Shown in pieces: positions 8,083 through 63,800 of a stretch of 64,000 nucleotides of DNA. Below the pieces are notes generated by a model that saw nothing but the letters and a program-made list of their open reading frames with translations, was not told the origin of the DNA and ran no database searches. How positions within the stretch are numbered: position 1 is the first letter of the stretch; the number at the start of each line of letters is the position of its first letter. The stretch covers positions 6,778,802-6,842,801 of the forward strand of contig NC_036445.1 in assembly GCF_002775205.1 (NCBI RefSeq), given 5' to 3'. The DNA comes from Xiphophorus maculatus (lineage: Eukaryota > Chordata > Actinopteri > Cyprinodontiformes > Poeciliidae). A program made the translations under genes and the position numbers.

Positions 8083-8204
8083 TGCCCGTAAGTTTCAACT
8101 TACAAGTTTCAAACTGCCTCTTTTGGGAGTTATCGGAAAAACATGCCCGCAAGCTTCATCTTGCAAGTTTCAAACTGCCTCCTTTGGGGTTTATTGGAAA
8201 AACA
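8083..8204. repeat. 61-bp two-copy tandem duplication
   Basis: Two head-to-tail copies of a 61-bp unit beginning 'tgcccg' and ending 'ggaaaaaca'. The units at 8083-8143 and 8144-8204 differ at about ten positions, so the duplication is not recent. No open frame runs through it. Confidence 0.9.
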
Positions 8205-9024
8205 TTCTGTTTAGAAACTGTTTCTTCTTGATTGGAAAGATAAGTAACAGATTATGAAACAAAAGTCCCATGCGTGCGCTCATCCATGGAAAAGAGATCC
8301 CACAGATTGCCTTAACAATGATTCTCAATGGAAACAAATGACCACCAATTTTGCACCTTTGTCATTTGTAATCAGTTTGTGACTGTGACTTCGGATTATA
8401 GGTTGGTTTCGTAACCATTTTATTCTTCTTTTCGGGTTATTTGAACATATTTACATCTCTCTGATATCCTTCTTATCCATTTAGATGATAATTCTTTGTT
8501 GCCTCTGGTTCTTATGTGTTTTGGGGCCTTAGTTATTATTTCCATTTTCAGAAAGTCTCTTTATTGCTATTTTTCCTCCTTTGTTGATACAGAAATTAAG
8601 ATTGTCAAGGACTCTGTTAGACTAAGAAAACAAAATGTGCTTGCTTATTGATGTCTGGCTACCTATCAGGTAGAAGGTTGCCTGTCTCTTTTCTGTGTGG
8701 GGTTTTTTATATTCTCTCCTGCCTTAGTACAGTCTGGGAACTTGCTAGTCCATTATTAAGAGAAAATTGCTCTCTTGTCTAAATGCTCAGAAATAAATAA
8801 GAATATTTTATTTGGATATTTTGCACCAGGCCAACACAAAGTCATAGTTGGGTAGTGAACTCTTTAACCTCCATTTGTGTATAGACATTTGTTAGAGAAT
8901 ACTGAGCAGAAAGTATCATAAAGAACAATTCAACCAAGATTATTAAACTGTATTTCAAGCTTCAATTCTTTATATGGAAATGGTAAGAGCATGGAACAAC
9001 AGCAAATGCAATGAGAAAGAGGAA

Positions 9025-14915: not shown

Positions 14916-16955
14916 TTATGTTGTCCAGGGGAAAGCGGTTGTAGCCTCGGGAGAATATGTGGCCATCATTTCTTTAATCCAGTTGGTGTATTCACACATC
15001 TTGGTGTAAACTGTAGGGTGAGCTGGATCCTCGCAGCCATGATTGAACCACGTCAAACCCTGCAGTTTACCGGCACACACCATCACATTGCTGCGACCAG
15101 TCTGAAAAAGACACAACATAACGCTTTGTTAAAACTGAAGGTTATGTGATGGAAGACAGCTCTGGAGAGCGTGGGGTGGACGGGATCAGAAACAATCAGC
15201 ATCAGTATCTCTGCTTCGTGTTGATGCTCACCAGGCAGTTATCTGTGTTTGGTTGACCGGCGCAGACCATGACACCCCAGTACAGATATGAAGGGAAGGT
15301 ATTCAAACAAGTCATGTCATCCACAACAGGCACAGTAAGACACTTCAGGTGCGGGGAGGGGTCATCTGATTTAAGGAGAGGGAAGGGAAGTTGTTACTTA
15401 TTTTAAACTGTTTACTTCATTTCACACAGGTATCTTATCTTTGTTTTAAATAGTTTACAATCTGTGTTCCATTGCTTGTCAAATTGCTACCCAATGCAGT
15501 TATTTAACAAAACAATCTTTCATTCTACACAGTTTAACAGATTATATGGAGCATGAAGATCTAATCCTTCAGCAAATCCTGTGTTCAGAGTCTACCTCTT
15601 TTAATTAGTTCTGATCACTGACTGGGTGCTCTGGCAGGTAATTAGAAACTGATTAAAAATGGAAATGACTAAAAAAAACATTCTTTCCTCTTTGGAGACT
15701 CAAGTGACCAGAATAAAAATGAGCTCCCGATTAAAAACTTTTGTATATCCTGAGTTTGAATTTTAGCCATTCAAAATTAGATACCAACAAATTGAACCAA
15801 AGTCCACAGCCTTTCAGGCCCCAAGTAAACCTCTGGAGAACTGATGTTCCCCCTATCTGAGAGAAGAACAGAGATGATAATCCCAGAGCAGAAACTGAAG
15901 CAGGTTCTGAAAATATAAACTTATTATTGGGCAACAAAGTAGGTACTCTGTATTTCTGTTTTATCATTGTAGGTCTGGTATAAGAAACTAAACACCAAAT
16001 TTATGGTGTTTCCGAAACCTGGATTCTATCTTTCCTTTTGTCTCTTCTACATAACAAAGTTAGTTTCTCAATGCTACATTTAATATTGTGCTCCCTAAAT
16101 GCTAAGAAATTCAAATCAAAATCAACATGACTGCCTTTAAATCCACTTACACTGGTTTGGTTCTGTGGAGCCCCAGCCGCTGATGGAGCAGATCTCTCCG
16201 GTCTGTGGGCAGCGGGTTGGTAGTGGGATTTGTTTGACAAACTGGTTGAACCTGGCCGGTGCAGACAGACGCACCATGGTGAGGCTGTGGAGAGGCGAGC
16301 GGTAGGGGCTGTGTTTGATCACGTCAGAAACTAAGATGTGCTGCTCTGTGCCTTCCTCCACACTTGAGTCATGTTCCCCAAGAGAAGCAACAGTCTCATA
16401 GGATCTGCAAAGAACCAAGGAGAGGCGTATAATTTATCAAACTCAGACAGAAAAAGGACAATAAGAGAGAAACAGTATGTCTTTGTCAGACATGAACAAG
16501 AGGTTGAATAATGGTCTACAATTAAGCTGGAACCCAACTGAGATTTCCAAACAATCAGTTTGAGCTTTTCTGGGTCTGACTACCCTAGTGACTGAAACTA
16601 TATCTCCCTATTCTTCACAACGAAAGCCATGCAATATTTATTTTTAAACAGCTTTTTGTTTTGTTGCCATTACTTGCTGACACTTACATAGGTGCACACT
16701 CAAATGAAGTCACTATCCACCACTGGTCAATGAGCGCTCCGCTGCATGACACTCCTCCACCATGCAGCCTCACATGCCAGGGCCTTGAGTGAGGCTCACA
16801 CTCTCTCACATCTTCCAGGGGGTAGGCTCCTACAAACCACCAATGACAGCAAGAGGAAGCTATAAATAATGGTTAAAATCTTAGCATTTTTCTATAGCAT
16901 CCTGTAAAGGTTTACCTGAAAGCACAAAGGCAGCAGCCAGGAGGAGAAGATACAT
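14916..16955 (-). CDS. trypsin-family pseudoprotease, secreted
   Basis: Five coding exons, 16955-16916, 16829-16688, 16404-16151, 15365-15232 and 15101-14916, give a 251-residue protein. All junctions are GT-AG and in phase, and exon 3 is 254 bp as in vertebrate trypsins. Residues 1-14 are a hydrophobic signal peptide. All twelve trypsin cysteines are present. The catalytic positions are not: the His is Glu57, the Asp is Ser101 and the Ser195 equivalent is Arg193, with GDSGG replaced by TGRSN. The IVGG activation site is LEDV, so no zymogen cleavage is expected. The specificity-pocket Asp remains (Asp187). The open frame and clean splice sites argue for a kept, non-proteolytic product such as a binding or scavenging protein, rather than a dead gene. 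A polyadenylation signal (AATAAA on the minus strand) lies at 14790-14785. The function is unknown to me. Confidence 0.88.
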
Positions 16956-17022: not shown

Positions 17023-17028
17023 TTTATA
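17023..17028 (-). promoter_or_regulatory. candidate TATA box of the pseudoprotease gene
   Basis: TATAAA reads on the minus strand 68 bp upstream of the start codon, within 'gctataaagt'. A second TATA-like stretch lies about 25 bp farther upstream. The intervening sequence allows a short 5' untranslated region. Confidence 0.45.
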
Positions 17029-47710: not shown

Positions 47711-48673
47711 TTAGTTGGCCTTGATGTAGGATTCATAGAGGGAGGTGAGACGAGTCTGGAGGTCCTGGGCATAGGGGTCCAGCCTCTCCCTCAGGTTGTC
47801 TACGTATGGGGCAGCGATTTCCTTCACCTGCTGGGCTCTCTGTGTGAGGTGATCCTGTACTCTCTCGGTCACGGGAGCGACTCTCTGCTTGAAGTCTTCC
47901 AGGTGCTGGTCAACCTTCTGCTTCAGGTCGTCGGTGTAGGGCCCCAGGTGAGTCTGCAGCTCCTGCACACTCTGCTCCAGCTGAGCCTTCAGCTCCTCGC
48001 TTTTCTGGATGACGGTGGTCCTCAGGGTCTCAGTATCCAAACTCTCGGTGTAGGGGGCCAGCTCCTGCTTGAGCTGCTCCACTCTCTCTCTGATCTGGAC
48101 CTTCAGGTTCTCAGTGTAGGGCTCCAGCTTCTCCCGGGCGTTGTTCAGGTCGGTGTTCAAGCGATCTCTCAGATCTTCTGCCTCTTGGGTGACTCTGGTG
48201 ATCAGTTCCTGGGCTCTGGGTGGGAGCTGCTCCTGCAGGGTGACTGCATACTGGCTGGCTGCTTCAGCGCCGTCGGTGAGACGGGAACTGAACAAAGTGA
48301 CAGGAGACAGTGAGTTTACACTCTGCAAAATCTAAATAAAAGCCATGCTTCATGTGACGGTGTATGTCATACCTGATATCCTGGCCAAACTGGGACTTTC
48401 TGATCATCTGAAGGGTGTCATCAGCTGTCTGGGTGGCTTTGCCGACATAGTCCCAGAAAGCATCAGTCATTACCTCCAGCTGTGGCTTGGGAGCGTCAGC
48501 GTAGAAGAGGTTGGCATTGCAGCCTGTTGGACGGATAGAAGGATAACTTGAAACTACGGCAGTTGTCTGAAGATACAATTCAGTCATTAACAAGACTTTA
48601 AGCTTCATTTTGATTTGCCCCCAGCTTACTTACCGGTGAAAACGGCCAGGACGAGCACAGCAAGGACCTTCAT
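47711..48673 (-). CDS. apoa4: apolipoprotein A-IV, minus-strand copy
   Basis: Three coding exons, 48673-48634 (40 bp), 48523-48373 (151 bp) and 48287-47711 (577 bp), encode 255 residues; a noncoding exon ends at 48774. The signal peptide is MKVLAVLVLAVFTG, followed by CNANLFYADAPKP. The last exon encodes amphipathic 22-residue helical repeats punctuated by proline: LEPYTENL, LAPYTESL, LGPYTDDL, VAPVTERV, AAPYVDNL and LDPYAQDL. This is the apoA-IV pattern of a secreted HDL and chylomicron protein made mainly in intestine and liver. The ending is LYESYIKAN. Polyadenylation signals lie at 47669-47664 and 47500-47495. It faces away from a second copy on the plus strand. Fish often carry several apoA-IV genes, so the copy number suffix is left open. 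Confidence 0.94.
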
Positions 48674-51519: not shown

Positions 51520-52536
51520 ATGAAGGTGTTTGTGTTGCTAATCGCTGCAGTGCTCTCTGGTAAGATGCTCTTATTTAAACACAGAAATTCAAAGAGTAAG
51601 AATAAAATAAACAAGGACTGATAACAATAACAACAAATAAATAAATAGTAATAAAATAAATTAGGTCTGAAAATAACCTTTATTGACATCTTTATTTTGG
51701 AAGGTTGCAATGCCAACCTCTTCTATGCTGATGCTCCAAAGCCAAAGTTAGAAGTGTTGACTGATGCTTTCTGGGACTACATTGCCAAGGCCACACAAAC
51801 AGCTGATGATACTCTGGAGATGATTAGGAGCTCACCAATTGGACAGGAAGTTAAGTAAGTTGCGTGAGGGACAGTTGGAGGGGGGAGGCTTATATTCTGC
51901 AGCATGTTACACAATCGTAGATTTCCTGACAGTCATTTTGTTTTGTTTTGGTCATCTAGTGCCCGCTTGACAGAGAGTGCTGACTTAGCCAGCAAGTATG
52001 CTGTGACCCTGCAGCAGCAACTTTCCCCCGCAGCCGAGGACCTGATGAACAAGATCACCACAGAGGCTGACATGCTGAAAAGCGTGCTGACCCAAGAGCT
52101 CAGCTCCGTCAGAGGCAAACTGGAGCCCTACACAGAGAACATGAAGGCCCAGATCCAGCAGAGAGTTGAGCAGCTCAAGCAGGAGCTGGCTCCCTACGCA
52201 GACTCGCTGGACTCTGAGGCGCTGAGGTCCACTTTGATTCAAAAGAGCGAAGAGCTGAAGACCAACCTGGAGCAGAGCGTGAAGGACCTGCAGGCTCAAC
52301 TGGGGCCCTACACAGATGACCTGAAGCAAAAGGTTGACCTGCACCTGGAAGCGTTCCAGAAAAGCGTAGCCCCCATGACCGAGAAGGTCCAGGTAGAACT
52401 GACCCAGAGAGCCAGTCTGGTGAAGCAAATTGTGGCTCCCTATGCTGAGGACCTGAGAGAGAAACTGGACCCCTACGCTCAGGACCTCCAGTCCCAGCTC
52501 ATGTCTCTCTACCAGTCATTTGTCGAAGCCAACTAA
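51520..52536 (+). CDS. apoa4: apolipoprotein A-IV, plus-strand copy
   Basis: Three coding exons, 51520-51559, 51704-51854 and 51960-52536, have lengths of 40, 151 and 577 bp, identical to those of the minus-strand copy, and also encode 255 residues. The start is MKVFVLLIAAVLSG, then the same CNANLFYADAPKP. The helical repeat exon keeps LEPYTENM, LAPYADSL, LGPYTDDL, VAPMTEKV, VAPYAEDL and LDPYAQDL, and ends LYQSFVEAN. Most residues agree with the other copy but the signal peptide and C-terminus differ, so the duplication is not recent. The introns are much shorter (144 and 105 bp). The polyadenylation signal is at 52797-52802. It is arranged head-to-head with its paralogue, about 2.5 kb between TATA boxes. 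It could be named apoa4a or apoa4b in a species with full annotation. Confidence 0.94.
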
Positions 52537-55640: not shown

Positions 55641-55717
55641 TTATTACATTACCTACGGTGGCCGACAGGTGCAAATGCGCAGCAAAAGAGAAAACATGCA
55701 AACAAAAAAGAAGACAC

Positions 55718-55830
55718 CCCCGAATGAAATGCAGCAAACAAAAAGAGAGACGCAAACACCCCCGAATGAAATGCAGCAAACAAAAAGAGAGACGCAAACA
55801 CCCCCGAATGAAATGCAGCAAACAAAAAGT
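55718..55830. repeat. 42-bp minisatellite, left arm (about 2.7 copies)
   Basis: Unit core 'gaatgaaatgcagcaaacaa' followed by 'aaagagagacgcaaacaccccc', total 42 bp. Three core copies are present. It is the complement of the right-arm array. Confidence 0.92.
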
Positions 55831-56504: not shown

Positions 56505-56835
56505 ACACTTTTTGTTTGCTGCATTTCATTCGGGGGTGTTTGCGTCTCTCTTTTTGTTTGCTGCATTTCATTCGGGGGTGTTTGCGTCTCTCTTTTTGTT
56601 TGCTGCATTTCATTCGGGGGTGTTTGCGTCTCTCTTTTTGTTTGCTGCATTTCATTCGGGGTGTTTGCGTCTCTCTTTTTGTTTGCTGCATTTCATTCGG
56701 GGGTGTTTGCGTCTCTCTTTTTGTTTGCTGCATTTCATTCGGGGGTGTTTGCGTCTCTCTTTTTGTTTGCTGCATTTCATTCGGGGGTGTTTGCGTCTCT
56801 CTTTTTGTTTGCTGCATTTCATTCGGGGGTGTCTT
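56505..56835. repeat. 42-bp minisatellite, right arm (about 7.5 copies)
   Basis: Eight cores 'gcatttcattcgggg' begin at 56521, 56563, 56605, 56647, 56688, 56730, 56772 and 56814. The spacing is 42 bp except once, 41 bp, where one G is missing. Because 42 is divisible by three, several reading frames stay open for more than 140 codons; these frames are repeat artefacts. Confidence 0.95.
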
Positions 56836-60823: not shown

Positions 60824-63800
60824 CTACAAGACTGTTTGCGTGGAGTCAGTGGTGCTGTTTGTGTTGGGTTTCTGCTCAGTATTCACTGAACTCACTGCGG
60901 CCTGATTCACTCTGCTGGTATTTTCAACGTTCATCGCTGGTTGGCGATCTGGTTGGGCGGCAGTGGTCGGTGGGGGTGAAACCACCACCCTTTCAATGGG
61001 CTCATTGGCTGTTCTGTCTGTCACAATGAGGTAATTCGGCTCAGGCTGGAGAGCGCTGGAGCGGCGCTGCAGTGCATGCTGGGTACAAGAGAAAGAGCGC
61101 TGCCGAGGGGCTGGCTGGGGAGAGAGGAAGTGAGGTGTAGTGGCTCGGGGGTTTTCGTGATGCCTGTCACGATCCTCGTCTTCTGATGTCACCTCCTGTA
61201 AGGTACTGATTGGCCGAGGGGAACGACCCATGACTCTTGGAGGAACGAGTGCCGTGGCTGATTGATTGAGCTGGGGTCTCCAGTTCTGGGGCGGTGGGTA
61301 CTGCATTCGGCCCATTGACCAATCACTGGCAACGAAGAAAAGTCATGAAAACATGATCAAATTGATGAAGGCATCAAAGAATTATGGTGAACAACTTAAA
61401 TTAAGAAAAAGAGGATGCTTAATTTATCTCCATTGTATGGCTGAAAACATATCAGTCGATATTTTTGATTGGTTTTTTGTTTTTCCTCTTGAGCTGTTGT
61501 AATCATTCTCTCCTTTCACTCCACCTCGTTCTTTTTATTTTTAAACAGTTATGAGGCAGCGAAACATGTAACCGCTGCTGAGGCAACAGGTTGTTGCTAG
61601 GTAACCAAAGAGAGAGCAAGTTAGTCAAGTTACCAACCTGAACTTTGCTTTGCTGACCAAAATTAGACGTCTATAGCTTTTCCTCTACCTACGTCCCCCA
61701 GAATGCTGTGCAGTTCTGAACTGGAGTTCACTGAAATTATTGAACATTGGATTGTACGTACCAGCTCTACATCAAACTGACCACAGCACCCCCACAACCA
61801 TTTTCTGAAATAGTTTGATCATTTTTGATCATTTGTAATCGCTAAAATTATTTGGTTAGTCTGACAAAATAATTATGATGTGTGTTTGAGTCAAATTTCT
61901 GAAAGCTTACTTCTGAGGTGTTGAGGTCATGTCTCGATGGGCTATCATCCCAGAGAATGAGGCGCTTCTTCCAGGGAGACCCTGAGAACTGACCCAGGGT
62001 GAGTACATTAGAGCACGCTCCTCCCACATCACATCGCTGGCCGTGTTAACAGGAACAGGCCCTCTCTGGATCTGGTGAGCCAGCAAGAGCTCCAGGACCT
62101 GATGGTGCATGGCCTCTCTGGCCACATCGATTGGACGACGGCCCCTCCGGTCATGCAGCTCCAGGTTGGCACCATGAAGCAGGAGAAGCCTGGAAGTGTC
62201 ATAACAGCCATGGAGGGAGGAGAGGAAGAGCGCTGTCTCACCCTAACAGAAAAAAATAATTGTGTAAGCAACTGTACCGGTACTCAAAATCATTTATTAC
62301 ATATAATCTTTTGATGATAAAATTCTAAACTGATACAGTGCCTTTCAAAAAGATTTATACCCCTTCAGCTTTCAGACATTCTGCCAACTTACAGCCACAA
62401 ACTTCCCAGCCACAAACCAAAGGAAACTGTTTGCACTGAATTTGTTTTAGGGGTAGCCAACTAAAGGGGGATAGAATTAAAATCAATATTGTGCTGACTC
62501 CATCGTTATGTTTTGTTTAGTTTTCCGATGGTAAATTGTAAGTTAAATTATAGAACCTTATCGACACCTAGTGGACAATGTTTATGTATTTAATTTGGTC
62601 AGTCAAGCAGAACTCGTCCAGCTGTAGCTACGCTTGGTGTTTTCGACTGTCCTTCAGACATGTTTGTTTCTTGGACACTATTTGTCTGTAAGTTAATTTT
62701 ATTAATTGCCATTTCAGTATTGTGTAATGTTTTATAGAAAAGTTTTACGTTTCCCAACCAACATTTAAAGCTACATTGTTAGCTAATTGGTGATAATTGG
62801 GAGTCATTCATTTGCTGTAGTCTAGTTGTTTTCTTTACCTTGTCTGTGGTTGATGTGTACTTTTGTGCTTTGTTACAGTTTTACAAAAGAAAAAACAAAC
62901 CAAAAAAAAGTTACAAAATAAAACTAGAAAACTATCACGGACTGGTTTATTTTCAACTCAAGGTTAGCTAGCTGTCTAGTTTTGTAAGAGCAACACATCG
63001 TGAGGGCAGCATAAATATTGAAACACATTTTCAAAAGAATTTGCACAAAAATGCTCAAATGTTTGTACAATTTCTCATTTGTCCCCTAATTTAAATTGGT
63101 GTGAAACAAATCCCCCCAAAAATATATTGAAGTTTGCAGCTATCACATAAAAAATGTGCAAAGGTTTAACAGGTGGGAATTCTTTCCTGGACAATGTCTG
63201 GATAATAAAGCTTAGTCACATACCTTGTTGTCTTGAAGGTCCACAGCAGCTCCATAGCGAATGAGGGTCCTTGCTAGGGAGAGGTGATTTACTGAGCATG
63301 CCCAGTGTAGGGCTGATCTCCCTGAGAGACAAGTGTGAGTGGAGGGGAGGTGAGGGAGTAAGTCAGCCAGTGAACAACCATTACACAACAGAGTTAAGCC
63401 CAGATGGTAAGGAGATGGGGGATGAAGAGGGAGAACACCTCTAATTAGGGGAGGATGGGATGATGACACAGGAGGACAGAGGGTTGAAGACAAAGAAAAG
63501 GACAGAAGAGCTGAAGCAAGGAGAAAGATTAAACACAAAGCTAATATATCCATCAACACAAGAATATTAACTTTGCTCTGAGTCAGAAGAAGAGAGTAGG
63601 GGAGCTGGAGAAGGACAGGTAGGAGGGACAGAAGGGACACAAAAAGAGGATGTGAGAGAGACGGGGTAAGTCACAAGTTACTCGACCCCCTCAGTGTCAG
63701 AAAAAGATGATTGTGAATTACACCCGTTTGACATAAACTCTCTACATGAAGACTGGGGGCTGAGGTACATTATCATGTCCCAGACTAACTAGTGATGTTG

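Follow-up and report, generated by a model that had tools for sequence, protein, structure and literature searches.

A trypsin-type gene beside an apolipoprotein cluster in Xiphophorus maculatus: catalytic machinery lost, scaffold kept, and a probable role as a secreted pseudoprotease

The window examined in this work, that is, the whole stretch of 64,000 nucleotides at C3:6778802-6842801 of the Xiphophorus maculatus genome (704 Mb), contains a trypsin-type gene on the minus strand (16955-14916, hereafter the window gene) and a cluster of apolipoprotein exons. The adjoining cluster had been claimed in a preliminary description of this DNA, and its presence is confirmed by four exons at 40.6-52.5 kb that match PF01442, three of them above the cut-off. 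Further ApoC-like exons, recognised by eye only, lie nearer to the window gene at 20.7-21.7 and 28.2-30.7 kb; a sub-threshold match to Pfam APOC4 was obtained at 30.5 kb (14.8 bits versus a cut-off of 27), and the ApoC-like exon at 28.4 kb has no Pfam match. Two apolipoprotein A1/A4/E exons (47711-48331, minus strand, and 51868-52536, plus strand) are similar to each other and opposed, as in an inverted duplication.

The window gene consists of five exons with intron phases 1, 2, 1 and 0 and GT-AG borders at all four introns. Its reading frame starts with the ATG at 16955 and ends with the TAA at 14916, which gives 252 codons including the stop and a protein of 251 amino acids. The features of the gene, all of them on the minus strand, are the following:

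17024..17028 (-): TATAA box, 73 bases upstream of the ATG, with a second TATAA 102 bases upstream; consensus match only
16916..16955 (-): exon 1, ATG and hydrophobic start of the signal peptide (MYLLLLAAAFVLS), phase-1 donor GTAAAC; layout and phase as in the trypsin models of the same genome
16688..16829 (-): exon 2, N-terminal LEDV replacing IVGG; Cys22, Cys42 and Cys58; Glu replacing His57
16151..16404 (-): exon 3, insertion of two residues after Cys58 (also in try_3455k and try_3457k); Ser replacing Asp102; Cys128, Cys136 and the GWG motif
15232..15365 (-): exon 4, Cys157, Cys168, Cys182, Asp189 and Cys191; 184-188 loop two residues shorter
14916..15101 (-): exon 5 and stop, TGRSN replacing GDSGG (Arg195); W214/F215/N216 and T226; Cys201, Cys220 and Cys232; C-terminal tail of 12 residues
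14785..14790 (-): AATAAA polyadenylation signal, about 126 bases downstream of the stop, read from the sequence

The spliced protein matches a single Pfam family, PF00089 (Trypsin), with 128.8 bits against a curated cut-off of 20.6; the match covers residues 22-232 of the protein and 5-220 of the 220 profile positions. The top PDB match is salmon trypsin 1utj (163.6 bits; best 60 of 442 distinct matching sequences). No family of NCBIfam was matched, Rfam gave no match on the 64-kb window, and the protein contains no N-glycosylation sequon. For the mature chain (from residue 16) a net charge of -10 and a pI of 5.4 were calculated; intact trypsins range from -5 to -18 and from 4.5 to 5.3. The coordinates, phases and clean frame of the five-exon gene previously described are thus exact, and the 12 trypsin cysteines attributed to it are all present (22, 42, 58, 128, 136, 157, 168, 182, 191, 201, 220 and 232). 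A search of the own genome returned 74 matches; the best one beyond the four exon matches of the gene itself reaches only 58.7 bits, so no recent duplicate was found there. Related to this, exon-3 relatives were sought in collections of prokaryotic and viral contigs, where none of 104 and none of seven pattern stretches, respectively, was confirmed.

The protein was aligned with seven references: the intact-triad trypsins of the same genome at C3:3443k, 3447k, 3455k, 3457k, 13668k and 13772k, and salmon trypsin. Its identity to each of them is 36.7-39.0% over 229-233 positions. In chymotrypsin numbering, for which residues 16-21 were placed manually relative to Cys22, the triad of an active trypsin is missing (H57E, D102S, S195R) and residues 193-197 read TGRSN (T193, G194, R195, S196, N197) instead of GDSGG, which includes the changes G193T and D194G. 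Residues 16-19 are LEDV, preceded by Pro; there is neither a K/R15-I16 activation site nor an activation peptide, and the Asp194 partner is G194. The replacements of the triad, of GDSGG and of residues 16-19 had been listed from the sequence beforehand and the alignment to intact trypsins bears them out. The S1 aspartate, also noted earlier, is indeed present as Asp189, but the pocket around it is altered by S214W, W215F, G216N, G226T and a deletion of two residues in the 184-188 loop. Asp189 is therefore no evidence for a retained specificity. Two other readings of the locus were rejected. A misread intact protease is at odds with the change of all three triad residues in a clean frame, and an alternative exon with GDSGG would not help, since exons 2 and 3 also come without their triad residues.

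A list of 22 positions involved in activation, triad, oxyanion hole and substrate binding was compiled from textbook roles, although it was drawn up after the alignment had been seen. Of the 81 columns that are invariant in the seven references, 18 belong to this machinery and 63 do not. The window gene retains two of the 18 (D189 and Y228) versus 49 of the 63 (Fisher p 4.2e-7). With the cysteines left out, 37 of 51 other invariant positions are still retained (Fisher p 1.0e-5), and leaving out one reference at a time gives p values from 4.2e-7 to 2.4e-6. When each reference was held out as the test gene, six of the seven kept 18/18 machinery positions and the remaining one 18/20. The window gene has lost 14 of the 63 invariant positions outside the machinery; of these, G43, S54, D100, I103, G187 and G188A are near the active site and K107R, Y172F and I176L are conservative.

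This contrast has to be weighed against the idea that the window gene is a duplicated trypsin turning into a pseudogene, under relaxed selection and with a frame left open by luck. The very long branch of the gene (2.59 changes per column) and the fact that the evidence comes from one genome agree with decay. Nevertheless, drift should strike scaffold and machinery equally, and the retention of 49/63 versus 2/18 is far from that pattern. The chance of finding 251 open codons is 1.7e-8 for intron composition and 2.9e-5 for the composition of coding sequence, and in a neutral simulation with substitutions only, started from try_3457k, none of 400 frames was open at about 36% identity. Base composition also departs from that of the introns: third codon positions are G or C in 143 of 252 codons (0.57), far off the intron GC of 0.361 (p 4e-11), and fourfold sites show a GC of 64/128 (p 0.002).

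The branch of the window gene was analysed by means of a codon model, written as an own script and applied to 213 codon columns of seven genes. On the tree joining it to try_3455k and try_3457k, the log likelihood is -4006.6 with omega fixed at 1, versus -3997.9 in the free fit and a profile optimum of -3997.6, the optimiser of the free fit having ended 0.3 log units below the latter. Neutrality is thus 8.7-9.0 log units worse, and 13.6 log units worse on an alternative tree with the 13.7-Mb pair. Point estimates of dN/dS (0.08-0.25) are not reliable because synonymous sites are saturated, so only a bound can be used: values of omega up to about 0.4 lie within two log units of the best, on a branch that also spans time preceding the catalytic loss. 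Decay itself can be observed in two broken trypsin copies which adjoin intact trypsins. The first one (L030:2631-3983) retains IVGG, the SAHC motif and NDIM, and it has a stop and shifted frames; motifs kept and frame broken is the reverse of what is found in the window gene. The second one (L032:5686-5889) is a fragment that offers no contrast, since GDSGG is lost there too. Taken together, the contrast between machinery and scaffold, the rejection of a neutral branch and the distance between GC3 and intron GC make a young pseudogene unlikely, indeed improbable in our judgement, and favour a conserved secreted protein without catalysis. The selection on a non-enzymatic trypsin scaffold that the preliminary description proposed is in this way supported, within the scope of one genome. 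Judging from its sequence, the window gene probably encodes a secreted pseudoprotease of the S1A type and arose by duplication of a trypsinogen gene; the scaffold residues and the cysteines of the six disulphides have been kept whereas catalysis and zymogen activation have been lost.

As for the origin of the gene, four intact trypsin models are located at C3:3.443-3.459 Mb, on the same chromosome and 3.3 Mb from the window gene. They are flanked by two genes:

C3:3.357-3.361 Mb: HSL (PF06350), with a second HSL locus on C13
C3:3.511-3.513 Mb: TOMM40, among several Porin_3 loci (17 matches); recognised by eye as TOMM40 from its first exon

Two minor observations concern this block. In the model try_3457k, the third coding exon is interrupted by an additional intron of about 440 bases (GTGAAT...GTAG, L030:9746 to L031:189, C3:3457746-3458189) that is absent from the five other trypsin models, and exons which look meprin-like by eye (MAM domain) lie near TOMM40 (L056:4895-5998, minus strand).

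The notothenioid locus of the antifreeze glycoprotein (AFGP) and the trypsinogen-like protease comprises tlp, tryp1, tryp3, tomm40 and hsl, tryp1 and tryp3 being homologues of prss59 (PMC10256766). The block of HSL, trypsins and TOMM40 described here has the gene set of that locus, a match made by gene content, and try_3455k and try_3457k are possibly of the tryp3 type. These two models share with the window gene the intron phases, the 12 cysteines and the insertion after Cys58, which leaves 10 residues instead of eight before LGE (13772k has one extra); they keep, however, the triad, GDSG and IVGG/IIGG, all of which the window gene has lost. Overall identity to them is 38-39%, about equal to that of the other trypsins (36.7-39.0%). 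In the codon model, with eight of nine placements tried (the 3447k tip was omitted), those among try_3455k and try_3457k beat five placements outside by 15.5-37.9 log units. The protein tree is not decisive (support 36/0; AU p 0.07-0.33 for five alternatives). Private residues found in the window gene amount to 5/26 for try_3455k and try_3457k, 2/24 for the tryp1-like group of 3443k, 3447k and salmon trypsin, and 2/10 for the 13.7-Mb pair, and such counts do not discriminate among sources. The insertion and the codon model hint that the trypsin array between HSL and TOMM40 is the likeliest source of the window gene.

The position of the gene at the edge of the apolipoprotein cluster invites a different interpretation, namely that its product is a binding protein found in plasma or associated with lipoproteins, and that it shares its regulation with the neighbouring apolipoprotein genes. 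The PF01442 exons at 40.6-52.5 kb speak for it. Nevertheless, this link comes solely from the neighbourhood, and the history of the chromosome explains the position at least as well. One study infers that LIPE, TOMM40 and APOE were neighbours in the most recent ancestor shared by teleosts and tetrapods (PMC3628338), a linkage that also accounts for the place where the gene is found. In zebrafish, tomm40 is about 2 Mb from apoc1 (PMC8822359), and here it is 3.3 Mb from the window. When the ancestral LIPE/TOMM40/APOE neighbourhood split, the window gene may have stayed behind as a trypsin on the apolipoprotein side; its address would in that case be explained without any role in lipid metabolism. 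The promoter adds a weak negative, as neither an HNF1 half-site nor an HNF4 site occurs in its 500 bases. An apolipoprotein-related function is consequently considered unlikely.

The promoter scan covered 500 bases upstream of the ATG in seven genes, with PTF1-like, HNF1 and HNF4 motifs and no chance control. HNF1 half-sites were found only in the promoters of 3443k, 3447k and 3457k, and HNF4 sites in none of the seven. The only PTF1-like pair of E-box and TTTCC lies 292 bases upstream of the ATG of the window gene; none of the six intact trypsin promoters has one. At first sight this pair, together with the retained trypsin scaffold and Asp189 and with kin that are digestive-type trypsins, would suit a protein of pancreas or gut that regulates trypsins or their inhibitors or serves as their decoy, or even one with an activity exerted via other residues. 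The PTF1-like match says little because of the missing chance control and its absence from all six intact trypsins, and the scan is not informative on tissue. Besides, S214W, W215F, G216N, G226T, G193T and D194G alter the substrate strand, the walls of S1 and the oxyanion hole, and there is no evident alternative nucleophile at 195. We therefore give such a function in gut or pancreas only a small chance of being correct.

A conserved pseudoprotease with an extracellular, non-cutting role is most likely what the window gene has been kept for, as far as its sequence can tell. A block of genes of the kind behind the notothenioid antifreeze glycoprotein, with the trypsin array between HSL and TOMM40, would have supplied the original copy. 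Cleavage of the signal near Ala15 would release a finished protein that needs no further activation. Glu57 and Arg195 stand where an active trypsin has its hydrogen-bonded His and Ser, and they may form a salt bridge filling the old catalytic cleft. The remodelled face of the former active site, or surface loops, could then bind a protein or a ligand, by analogy with pseudoproteases of haptoglobin type.

Pseudoproteases of the S1A family are already a known kind of protein (haptoglobin, PRSS37 and others). Haptoglobin is a secreted protein whose S1A domain, without His57 and Ser195, is used for binding and is preceded by CCP domains. The window gene is similar in that it also encodes a predicted secreted S1A domain devoid of His57 and Ser195, and it differs in the absence of a CCP domain, as the signal peptide leads straight into the S1A domain. 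PRSS37, PRSS54 and PRSS58/TRYX3 are mammalian inactive members of the trypsin family that have lost triad residues and kept the secreted fold; they belong to other lineages and loci than the window gene, and the likeness concerns the loss of the triad, with no claim of orthology. Not many vertebrate S1A pseudoproteases are known in which the triad, the oxyanion hole, the zymogen switch and the S1 walls have been replaced jointly and all the disulphide cysteines retained. Among the titles and abstract openings listed from an open-access library there was no report of a catalytically dead fish trypsin beside apolipoproteins. The window gene is probably a new S1A pseudoprotease; its machinery has been lost to an unusual extent, and its genomic origin may be of interest.

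Closest in genomic setting are the trypsinogen-like protease and AFGP of notothenioids, where trypsinogen duplicates of an HSL/TOMM40 block are involved and one was recruited to a new role (PMC10256766); AFGP is a repeat polymer without protease fold, whereas the window gene appears to keep the fold and discards catalysis. Related to this, a bolder and tentative proposal, possible rather than probable, is that the teleost block of trypsins, HSL and TOMM40 gave rise to a second non-digestive secreted protein besides AFGP: its active site would have been welded shut, it would have been stranded beside the apolipoproteins when the TOMM40-APOE neighbourhood broke up, and it would act as a haptoglobin-like binder in plasma or mucosa. 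If orthologues confirm the constraint, the window gene would be a clean case in which to ask how an enzyme scaffold comes to be re-used in binding, and the apolipoprotein region would be tied to the kind of trypsin block that yielded the antifreeze glycoproteins.

Some other features of the window and its flanks were recorded. A unit of 61 bases is present in two tandem copies with 87% match at 8083-8205, and one minisatellite unit of 42 bases forms two arrays in opposite orientation at 55714-55829 and 56508-56832, with 2.8 and 7.8 copies. On the left of the window there is an adhesion gene of the Ig superfamily with a terminal transmembrane segment (L037:7571 to L034:8480, C3:6756372-6767281), which may be BCAM-like; its PDB matches are generic Ig proteins. 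On the right flank, ankyrin-repeat exons identified by Pfam (window 61907-63670, minus strand) and a Notch-like LNR exon recognised by eye (L036:3815-4222, minus strand) probably belong to a notch gene.
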